Origin: Onthophagus taurus
Taxonomy: Eukaryota > Arthropoda > Insecta > Coleoptera > Scarabaeidae
Direction: 5' to 3'
DNA: 64,000 nucleotides
Assembly: GCF_036711975.1 (NCBI RefSeq)
Contig: NC_091966.1
Coordinates: 36,897,501-36,961,500 of the forward strand
Positions 9,009 to 12,993 of the stretch are shown in pieces (position 1 is the first letter of the stretch; each line of letters opens with the position of its first letter). The notes below the pieces were generated by a model. The model was not told the origin of the DNA and ran no database searches. It saw nothing but the letters and a program-made list of their open reading frames with translations. A program made the position numbers and the translations under genes.

Positions 9009-10185
9009 TCACTTTGGTGCACCCGGTGGTTTTATTAATGGTTCCTCATGACTTTGATATTTAGGTTTTCCATGTGTAAATGGTAAATACCTATATTTGA
9101 TCATGTGCTAAAATATAACATTTATAAATAAAAATGTAGGTTTTAATTAACATTGAAGTACCTTTATTTGACGTTTCATCGTAACGCAGAATAACGTCAG
9201 GAAATACATGACGAGGATCGGCCAAAATACTGGAATATTAAAGCAATCGAAGAATGTACAAATAATTGCAAAAACTGTACTTTTTGTCACCGAATACCAA
9301 AATTTAAACTCAGGCAACCTTCTAATAAACGGCCGAAACTCTTCATTTGCTCTAGTTGGTAATTCTGGACCATTTTCATCAGCTGTATTTAAAAAATTAA
9401 TGAAAATAATTAATTAGAAAAGGATAAATAAATAAATTTTACCATCAAAATCCATGGCTGGATCAATTTTAGGTGTCAAAAACGCTATGAATAAGTTTAA
9501 GTGATAAATACCGAGCGCATAAGTCACGATATACCATCCCTGAAACACAATAACATAAAATTGTCCACAACATTAATTCCCCCATAATAAATTAAAAAAG
9601 AAATCGTCTATGTTGGTTTGATACTAAAAAAGTGGTGGAGAGGTACAGTTTTTGTAGCCATTGATGACATAAAGCTTCTGAACAAAGGTAACAAAATGAA
9701 AGAGAACTTAAAAAACTGAAATAATAATACCTGAACAATCAAGACCCTTGCCATAAAAAGCGCGATGAGCAGCAGGGCCCCGACCCATCGGGATTTTTTC
9801 CAAGGTACCGTCCTATCCACCACTCCTTGGTACCACTAAAACATAGAAAACACATCAATCTACCTTCATCAAGAATATTCTCAATCCGAATAATATCAGT
9901 AACGATAATGTGAAGCCCCAACGCCACCTTGTGTATGGTGTCCATTTATCCAATGTACTTTGGAATATCTGTAGTTTTAAGCACCAAAAAAGTAAGATGA
10001 TTTAAAATGAAAAATTTTAATATTCCCAAAATTCCCAAAGTAATAGTTTTAAAGCAAATAATATACTCCATATAATAATGATAGCCCATAAAATAATTAA
10101 TCCTGTAATCACTAACCTGTGATAACCTTGTCCATGCTTGTGAGATGACACTTTTTTTCTTTGGTTGTAATAAATCGTCATCCAT
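9009..10185 (-). CDS. RER1: RER1, Golgi-to-ER retrieval receptor
   Basis: RER1 is a multi-pass early-Golgi membrane protein that returns ER proteins and unassembled subunits in COPI vesicles. Coding exons: 1, 10117-10185 (starts [10 protein letters not shown]); 2a, 9864-9968, or 2b, 9731-9835; 3, 9443-9539 ([20 protein letters not shown]); 4, 9162-9382 ([17 protein letters not shown], then [18 protein letters not shown]); 5, 9009-9107 ([17 protein letters not shown]). All phases agree and give 196 residues with either exon 2, the usual family length. [16 protein letters not shown] and KRQIKHMIKYRY.PFTHGK are diagnostic. The 5' leader appears interrupted: an acceptor lies just upstream, giving an exon that begins about 10211. 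Exons 2a and 2b look mutually exclusive. NDUFB6 starts 570 bp away on the opposite strand. Confidence 0.95.
9731..9835 (-). other. RER1: RER1 alternative exon 2b
   Basis: Also exactly 35 codons and phase 0, from a TGTTTTAG acceptor to a CAG|GTATTA donor. It encodes [17 protein letters not shown], then [15 protein letters not shown]. It aligns with exon 2a without gaps; by eye 10 of 35 residues are identical, including Q, D, P, RW and a late R. It begins 28 nt after exon 2a ends. Confidence 0.88.
9864..9968 (-). other. RER1: RER1 alternative exon 2a
   Basis: Exactly 35 codons, phase 0 at both ends, from an ACTACAG acceptor to an AAG|GTAGAT donor. It encodes [17 protein letters not shown], then a hydrophobic stretch ending GLRIFLMK. 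This is the more canonical version of the first transmembrane region (family pattern Q..LDK.TPY...RW). Confidence 0.9.
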
Positions 10186-10754: not shown

Positions 10755-11255
10755 ATGGTGAAATCCTCCCCAACCGGGGGCGTAATGCCCATGGATCTCG
10801 CGGGTCGCCTCGCCCGCGAAAGAGAACGTCTCCTGGGCATGACAGACGCCGAAAGAGCCTTCCGTAAGCAATACTTAAAAGATCAAGAATTAGCCCATGG
10901 AGAACCAAAATTCGTTCCGGAACTCTACAGGGAAACCGTAAACCCCATCCGTCGACTTTACCGTGCACCCTTAGACGCATTTCGTGTAATGATCACCCCG
11001 ATTGTTGGCGCACAAAGGGCCCTTCATATTCGTTACTTCGCCGGAAAATTCTTGATGATTACACTTTTTGCTTATGGATGCACTTATTATTTTAAGTATA
11101 ATGGAAACGATTGGACTCGCCCTGGAGGTTGGAGAAAAGTTGAATCGCGAATTGCAGTATTCCCCGGTGATCCTGAATTTCCTAAAGTTTCAGAACGAAC
11201 AGTCGGAGCTGATTATGCTTCTAGAGGATTTAAAGATGTAAAAGTTAATTTGTAA
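10755..11255 (+). CDS. NDUFB6: NDUFB6, complex I B17 subunit
   Basis: A single-exon frame of 166 residues. The protein is an accessory, single-span inner-membrane subunit of mitochondrial NADH:ubiquinone oxidoreductase. Recognition rests on RKQYLKDQELAHGEPKFVP near residues 36-55 (family RR.WLKDQEL...EP), a hydrophobic span KFLMITLFAYGCTYYFKY near 97-115, and the tail RKVESRIAVFPGDPEFPK (family VE..S.IFPGD). It is longer than the mammalian protein at both ends, as is common in insects. The start chosen is the first ATG after an A-rich leader (AAAAATGG); a second in-frame Met follows at residue 11. AATAAA lies 42 bases after the stop, at 11297. Confidence 0.93.
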   Translation: MVKSSPTGGVMPMDLAGRLARERERLLGMTDAERAFRKQYLKDQELAHGEPKFVPELYRETVNPIRRLYRAPLDAFRVMITPIVGAQRALHIRYFAGKFLMITLFAYGCTYYFKYNGNDWTRPGGWRKVESRIAVFPGDPEFPKVSERTVGADYASRGFKDVKVNL

Positions 11256-11329: not shown

Positions 11330-11830
11330 TTGACAGATACATAACCTCAATTTAATCCTTAAATTATAATTAATATAGAAGGAAAGTGTTATTTTAGGAT
11401 GTAAAATTTGTTTTTTATAATTATTATAATAAAATTAAAGCTTTAATTATAATGTATTAATGTAAAATTAAAAAAATTTGATAACTCAAAACATAACCTC
11501 AATTTAATCCTGAAATTATAATTAATATAGAGTGTTATTTTAGGATGTAAAATTTGTATTTATAAGTCTTATTATTTGTAATGTTATAATTAAAGCTTTA
11601 ATTGTAATGTATTAATATAAAATTAAAAAAAATTGACAACTCAAAACATAACCTCAATTTAATCCTCAAATTATAATTAATATAGAAAAATTGTTGTTTT
11701 AGGATGTAAAATTTGTATTTATAAGTCTTATTATTTGTAATGTTATAATTAAAGCTTTAATTGTAATGTATTAATATAAAATTAAAAAAATTTTGACAAC
11801 TCAAAACATAACCTTAATGTATAAATAATA
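11330..11830. repeat. ~153-bp tandem array, three copies plus a partial
   Basis: ATAACCTCAATTTAATCC recurs at 11341, 11493 and 11647, with a weaker fourth start at 11808, giving spacings of 152, 154 and 161. Each unit also carries TTTTAGGATGTAAAATTTG and TTAAAGCTTTAATT. The array lies between NDUFB6 and the TRM10 gene and its last part is within 100 bp of the TRM10 start, so it probably includes promoter DNA. Confidence 0.88.
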
Positions 11831-11890: not shown

Positions 11891-12993
11891 ATGGATGAAT
11901 TAAGTAATTTAGGAGTAAAAAGAAAATTAGAAACATCTAACGATGCCCCATTAGAAGAAAGTAAAAAGATTTTAATTGAAAATGACACCAACACGTCCTC
12001 AAACATCGACACAGAAAAACAAGAATATTTTAACGGAGTAGAAATTTCTAAATTAACTAAACGACAACTTAAAAAGTATAATAAAATGTTAAAATGGCAA
12101 GAAACGAAAAAATTAAAACGAGCTAATGAACGTATCAAAACTAAAAGGAAAAAGATTGAAGCGAAGCTAAACAACATTGATTTGGGACCCAGTCGAAAGC
12201 AATTAAAAAGAAGCACCATGGCAAATAGTTCTTGTAAAATATCAGTGGTTATAGATTTAAGTTTTGATGATTTAATGATAAGTAAAGATTTGGGAAAAGT
12301 GATTAAACAAATATTAAGGGTTTATACCGATAATCGAAGAGCTAAAGCTCCAATGCAATTGTATTTAACCAGTTTTGAAGGAAAAGCTAAAGAAGAAATG
12401 GGGAAACACCACGGCTATGAGTATTGGGACATTAATTTTTGTGAAGATGAATATTTAAAGATTTTTCCAAAAGAAAAATTGATTTATTTAAGTAGTGAAA
12501 GCGATAATGTTATTAATGAATTGGAAGATGATAAAGTTTATATTATAGGAGGATTAGTTGATCATAATTCGCACAAAGTAAGTTTAATAAAAAAAAATAA
12601 TTTCTTAAATCTTTTATTTTTGATTTAATAAATATTAATTAATACAAACTAAAATACTATTCAAAAAAGAAACTAAATTTATAAATAACTCACAGGGTAT
12701 TTGCTATAAGAAAGCTGTAGAACAAGGAATATCCCACGGTCAATTGCCAATTGGAGAATATTTTAAATTAAAACATAGGAAAGTATTTACTATAAATCAA
12801 GGTAACTAATCAATCAATTTCTAACTTAATTTTTAACTCAATTATTTTAGTTTTTGAAATTCTTCTAAGAGTATCCGAAGGTAAAACATTCAAAGAAGCT
12901 TTCGAAACGACTTTACCTAAACGCATAAATATGCAACCAACTCAAAACGAAATTCAAGAAACGAAATTAATAGAAGTAGAAATTAATAAATAA
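11891..12993 (+). CDS. TRMT10A: TRM10-type tRNA (guanine-9-N1) methyltransferase
   Basis: The enzyme transfers a methyl group from S-adenosylmethionine to N1 of guanine 9 in tRNA. Exons 11891-12577, 12696-12801 and 12851-12993 join in phase to 311 residues. The N-terminus is Lys-rich and acidic (to about residue 75) and includes KLTKRQLKKYNKMLKWQETK. The SPOUT-fold domain begins near 118 with ISVVIDLSFDDLM and continues through KAPMQLYLTSFEG, IYLSSESDNVI and YIIGGLVDHN, whose Asp is the conserved catalytic-site residue. It ends GISHGQLPIGEYFKL and VFEILLRVSEGKTFKEAF. No mitochondrial presequence is evident, so it fits the cytosolic/nuclear A/B branch better than TRMT10C; A versus B is not certain. 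The ATG at 11891 is used; the frame is open only a little further upstream, without an ATG. Confidence 0.93.

Follow-up and report, generated by a model that had tools for sequence, protein, structure and literature searches.

Tandem duplication of RER1 exon 2 in Onthophagus taurus and the probable mutually exclusive splicing of its copies

INTRODUCTION

In the alpha-tropomyosin gene, steric interference reportedly prevents two mutually exclusive exons from being joined, a system said to have been described by Smith and Nadal-Ginard in 1989. A comparable case is OGDH, whose exons 4a and 4b are mutually exclusive and have a short distance between donor and branch point (PMC7969005). In human, 57 exon clusters (9% of 629) have potential for steric interference, defined as less than 50 bp from donor to branch point (PMC5740500). 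The RER1 gene of the beetle Onthophagus taurus resembles alpha-tropomyosin and OGDH 4a/4b in having tandem homologous exons that share the same neighbours, with the first donor near the second branch site, but differs in that its whole spacer is just 28 nt.

RER1 (Rer1p) is a sorting receptor that binds its cargo through polar residues exposed in the transmembrane domains and brings it back to the ER (PMC5383021). Alternative splicing is on record for the human gene: exon skipping follows the knockdown of exon-junction-complex factors (PMC7470949), and recurrent splicing changes affect RER1 in 9 of 16 tumour types (PMC11591948). The beetle locus has in common with these cases the gene family and alternative splicing; the event seen after knockdown, however, is the skipping of one exon rather than a choice between two homologous exons.

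A literature search over titles, the openings of abstracts and RER1 passages of main texts found no description of this RER1 exon pair; it may be listed in supplements or in a Drosophila exome-wide survey, reportedly the work of Hatje and Kollmar (2013). Neither PMC5740500 nor PMC3923563 uses the term rer1 in its main text, and neither isoform, exon nor splic occurs in the main text of a Drosophila Rer1 paper (PMC10919865). We place the RER1 exon pair as a known kind of system in a gene for which no report was found. The original prediction, made from the sequence, knew of no description for RER1; the papers covered here contain none either, but automated annotation already contains both RER1 isoforms of O. 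taurus, as X1 and X2.

RESULTS

The RER1 gene of O. taurus carries two versions of exon 2

The window analysed is a 64,000-nt stretch of the O. taurus genome, and RER1 lies on its minus strand. The features are as follows.

10185 down to 9009, minus strand: RER1, complete coding gene of Onthophagus taurus, 1,177 bp coding span including introns
10117..10185, minus strand: first coding exon (MDDDLL...RLSQ), donor CAG/GTTAGT; the joined models equal P0003/P0004
9864..9968, minus strand: exon 2a, 35 codons, type A juxtamembrane and first membrane segment, isoform X1 (P0004)
9836..9863, minus strand: 2a/2b spacer, 28 nt, with the 2a donor, a branch-point-like TTGAT, a U/GU-rich tract and the 2b acceptor
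9731..9835, minus strand: exon 2b, 35 codons, type B juxtamembrane and first membrane segment, isoform X2 (P0003)
9443..9539, minus strand: exon 3 (starts [17 protein letters not shown]..., second membrane segment)
9162..9382, minus strand: exon 4
9009..9107, minus strand: exon 5, coding part and stop

Joining exon 1 to either 2a or 2b and then to exons 3-5 gives a protein of 196 aa in both cases. The model with 2b equals, residue for residue, the database entry 'protein RER1 isoform X2 [Onthophagus taurus]' (P0003), and the model with 2a equals RER1 isoform X1 of the same species (P0004). Over 165 residues the Pfam family Rer1 (PF03248) scores 255.2 bits for the 2b form and 254.6 bits for the 2a form, against a cut-off of 23.9. 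A form with exon 2 left out still reaches 214.6 bits, so the family match is a weak test of exon 2 itself. A six-frame search of the species' own genome with the same profile returned the stretches 9659-9835, which holds 2b (28.4 bits), and 9834-9971, which holds 2a (27.7 bits; cut-off 23.9), both matches extending into adjoining non-coding bases. The sole other match in the genome had E = 6.9 and lay under the cut-off, so that one RER1 locus was found; the search of 14 control genomes gave one match, also under the cut-off. A scan for ungapped 105-nt matches between exons 1 and 3 on the minus strand found no third copy of exon 2, the best other score (14) coming from an overlapping register of 2b.

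Direct reading and recomputation bore out the predicted positions of 2a and 2b, their 35 codons (105 nt) each and phase 0 at both ends, and both exons have GT/AG dinucleotides. As predicted, their 35-aa products align without gaps, with 10 identities and a BLOSUM62 score of 54. None of 100,000 shuffles of 2b reached this score and six reached 10 identities, in agreement with an origin by exon duplication. The spacer (9836-9863) opens with GTAGAT and closes with TTTTAG, and its retention in frame reads V-D-stop (TGA); the 28-nt gap with its donor and acceptor, and the stop within three codons, had both been read correctly from the sequence. The 2a donor, AAG/GTAGAT, has 7 of 9 consensus matches and the 2b donor 6 of 9, and pyrimidines occupy 12 of 17 positions from -20 to -4 at the 2b acceptor and 9 of 17 at the 2a acceptor. 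Branch-point-like motifs for 2b (TTGAT) place the A at -20, the ninth spacer base, and at -34, within exon 2a; the motif is loose, with 2 to 6 matches near each acceptor examined, and the 2b branch point is accordingly a candidate. The constitutive introns 3-4 and 4-5 of RER1 measure 60 and 54 nt, compared with 28 nt for the spacer, and every combination of 2a and 2b, double inclusion and skipping included, keeps the frame.

Judged against published definitions, 2a and 2b have the similar length, the same frame with compatible splice sites and the homology by which Kassiopeia recognises mutually exclusive exons (PMC3923563). With a whole spacer of 28 nt they also fall within the donor-to-branch-point distance of less than 50 nt used for steric interference in PMC5740500, here with a branch point predicted from the motif. 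PMC5740500 further asks for RNA junctions that bridge the other copy and for none between the two copies: the database isoforms X1 and X2 would fit the former, and for the latter the 28-nt spacer with its stop speaks against joining in O. taurus, whereas gene models of three other species do join the copies.

Exon 2b has a GC content of 53% (63% at third positions), compared with 35-37% in the other RER1 coding exons. Upstream of RER1 (9009-10185, minus strand), an NDUFB6/B17 gene (10755-11255, plus strand; Pfam PF09782, 92.4 bits) stands head to head with it, with about 570 bp between the start codons, and a shared promoter region is possible. The interval that runs from the NDUFB6 frame to the next open frame contains, at 11339-11821, an AT-rich unit in three tandem copies that are imperfect and lie 152-160 bp apart. 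That next frame (11891-12628, plus strand) resembles a tRNA (guanine-1) methyltransferase (PF01746, 67.9 bits), and as the match ends at profile position 120 of 195, further exons are likely.

A and B copies of exon 2 occur in other insects

We examined the exon-2 segments of 121 proteins, namely the best 120 of 5,089 matches and one from a search restricted to exon 2. The 120 were ranked by likeness to the 2b isoform, so that Diptera, Hymenoptera or Lepidoptera may have a B form too. Protein searches limited to the exon-2 region gave 7 and 2 rows, query included. Type A copies have the motif LD-x-WTP-H/Y ... F-G/x-L/I-R and type B copies the motif D-x-V/T-T/V-P ... F-L/M-A/G-R. Among the matches listed, A and B occur as separate proteins in at least nine species, namely eight beetles (Onthophagus, Anoplophora, Brassicogethes, Harmonia, Gonioctena, Photinus, Rhynchophorus and Acanthoscelides) and the caddisfly Arctopsyche. 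Outside exon 2 the A and B proteins are identical in eight of the nine pairs first compared; the first Rhynchophorus pair differs at the C-terminal end, and isoforms X3 and X4 of this species are identical outside exon 2. The longest listed contig was equally long for A and B in all nine pairs, which fits one locus per species.

Gene models of the bark beetle Dendroctonus (P0037), the stick insect Timema (P0081) and the mayfly Cloeon (P0098) contain an A copy followed directly by a B copy, in support of the tandem order A then B. At protein level, the search for the second exon in other insect RER1 genes thus yielded A/B pairs in 11 other species. Six B-type proteins (P0015, P0016, P0019, P0025, P0031 and P0044) come from contigs of 914-1514 bp with uninterrupted frames of 187-197 aa, five of which start with M (P0031 does not). 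Since coding exons and introns together take up 1,177 bp in O. taurus, these contigs look like spliced transcripts, and some could instead be retrocopies. Alignment-based scans found no RER1 relatives in the genomic and viral contig collections.

Variation was also seen at the junction of exons 1 and 2. Two bee proteins (P0095 and P0100) have three extra residues (VYL) there, as if from a nearby alternative acceptor, and P0072 (Rhynchophorus ferrugineus X2) has a nine-residue extension at the exon 1/exon 2A junction relative to P0048.

Both copies appear constrained in beetles

Both copies of exon 2 are conserved in several families of beetles. Nine two-copy beetles were compared, the eight with separate A and B proteins and Dendroctonus. 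Mean identity was 54.6% among A copies and 67.4% among B copies (36 pairs each), compared with 35.4% between A and B of different species (72 pairs) and 33.0% between A and B within a species (9 pairs). Copies are nearer to their counterparts in other species than to their own neighbours, which argues that both are old and constrained within beetles, the group to which we confine this estimate of age. Seven columns (1, 9, 10, 12, 13, 28 and 29) have disjoint residue sets in A and B of the nine beetles, and positions 3, 7, 11, 16, 17 and 27 (Q, D, P, R, W and F) are invariant in all 18 beetle copies. A tryptophan stands at position 9 in A (WTPH/Y) and at position 12 in B (TVPW). Identity over the next 24 residues, in exon 3, is 97.2% in the same beetles.

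The age of the duplication beyond beetles

B-like copies (DDVTPY...F-L/G-A/G-R) are found in many hemimetabolous sequences, and those of Timema and Cloeon are preceded by an A-like copy. When 38 sequences were chosen and labelled by motif, with intermediate ones left out, a tree of their 35 residues separated A from B with support of 99/99. A tree of 123 sequences, comprising 120 of the 121 proteins (P0007, whose model is broken inside exon 2, was dropped) and the three upstream copies, did not recover the split; it requires two changes for the seed copies, gives no support to the forks at its root and has the mayfly A copy among the hemimetabolous B-like sequences. With both copies of the 12 two-copy species the A/B split had support of 92/85 and was not starred.

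Pairwise identities speak against an early separation of A and B. Caddisfly A is 49% identical to Onthophagus B, compared with 37% each for A-A and B-B, and between Onthophagus and Cloeon the values are 37 and 43% within types and 43 and 37% across types. Among four AU tests, a duplication restricted to Cloeon (0.13), Arctopsyche (0.32) or beetles (0.118) was not rejected. A Timema-only duplication was rejected (p 0.007, one of the four tests); in the gene model, the first two residues of the Timema A copy are missing. The tree of 123 sequences neither shows nor rules out a single origin of A and B.

The part of the protein that differs

RER1 has four membrane spans. Exon 2 encodes residues 24-58. 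These take in the last part of a predicted N-terminal helix, then a proline and a single hydrophobic stretch, and it is in exon 3 that the following hydrophobic stretch begins. The earlier proposal that each exon encodes the first membrane hairpin is therefore replaced by a juxtamembrane segment and a single hydrophobic stretch. AlphaFold models of the two isoforms, built on 22-row alignments, were poor (mean pLDDT 61.0 and 61.8, pTM 0.28 and 0.30). The exon 2 region is modelled as helix, with a block pLDDT of 72-88 over residues 11-60, and residues 36-79 or 34-79 are drawn as one long helix over the exon 2/3 junction, so the models leave a separate first membrane segment unconfirmed. A search of solved structures with P0004 gave no match at E up to 1.

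DISCUSSION

We consider it highly likely that exon 2 of O. taurus RER1 was tandemly duplicated and that the copies are spliced mutually exclusively by steric interference; the function of isoform choice is our guess. U1 at the 2a donor and SF1/U2 at the 2b branch site would have no simultaneous fit in the 28-nt spacer, and an intron of 28 nt should be unremovable, so that exon 1 would join either 2a, whose donor would then skip 2b to reach exon 3, or 2b. Since 105 + 105 nt is frame-neutral, frameshift and decay would be unable to police double inclusion, leaving spacing as the likely enforcer; we infer the steric cause from this anatomy. The outcome would be two 196-aa forms that differ only in the juxtamembrane and first membrane segment. 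The conserved pair is very probably mutually exclusive and spacing-enforced, as the original prediction proposed. The proposal of two forms agrees with the X1 and X2 proteins and the A/B pairs of the other species, while exclusivity is deduced from the layout of the gene and the three gene models that join A to B (P0037, P0081 and P0098) count against it; the gap may be longer in those species, or the models may be wrong.

These joined models are also what ordinary cassette exons would predict, a reading under which a 231-aa double-inclusion form and a skip form are made as well and which gains from every exon combination being in frame. In O. taurus, however, it would require removal of a 28-nt intron, with retention leading to a stop, and the topology should be upset by one more membrane segment of this type; we regard the cassette reading as very improbable. 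It is harder still to credit that one copy alone is used and the other is a relic or annotation artefact, because both yield database proteins, B-type frames run uninterrupted on short contigs, and both copies are intact in the window and in the other two-copy species. Somewhat more plausible, if still unlikely, is that RNA-binding proteins or competing RNA structures mainly set exclusivity and choice, with the short spacer secondary. The region of the 2b acceptor is rich in U and GU, and insects are known to have mutually exclusive splicing driven by RNA structure (PMC8042237 and PMC6071210), but a spacer below the smallest RER1 intron (54 nt) should block double inclusion unaided.

Accepting exclusivity by spacing as the preferred reading, the question becomes whether the two forms differ in function. 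We guess that the choice of 2a or 2b depends on tissue or stage and would tune which membrane proteins RER1 retrieves, and we treat a difference in cargo choice between the isoforms as a hypothesis. Both match PF03248; the beetle locus differs from the described RER1/Rer1p in giving two interchangeable first membrane segments. A substantial minority possibility, to which we give real weight, is that the isoforms are functionally equivalent and that the duplication persists through drift, dosage or splicing constraint. The nearly equal family scores of the two forms favour equivalence, as does the faster evolution of exon 2 than of its neighbour in the nine beetles (55-67% identity compared with 97% over the next 24 residues). 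The seven columns with non-overlapping residue sets in A and B weigh against it, as does the fact that A and B remain distinct inside each of the nine beetles (26-40% identity).

A broader scenario is tentative and on balance doubtful: a single duplication in the winged-insect ancestor would have given rise to the A and B classes, used either-or in mayflies, stick insects, caddisflies and beetles and recognising different membrane cargo. If that is true, insects would have a general sorting receptor that comes in two versions, selected by splicing. At the scale of the locus, the gene offers a compact, testable case of exclusivity by spacing, where frame-based decay cannot help. RER1 is commonly regarded as a single housekeeping receptor; here one locus encodes two RER1 proteins that are identical except for 35 residues. 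A conserved splice switch in the first membrane segment, if true, would be a natural experiment on the part of RER1 that reads the membrane segments of its cargo.
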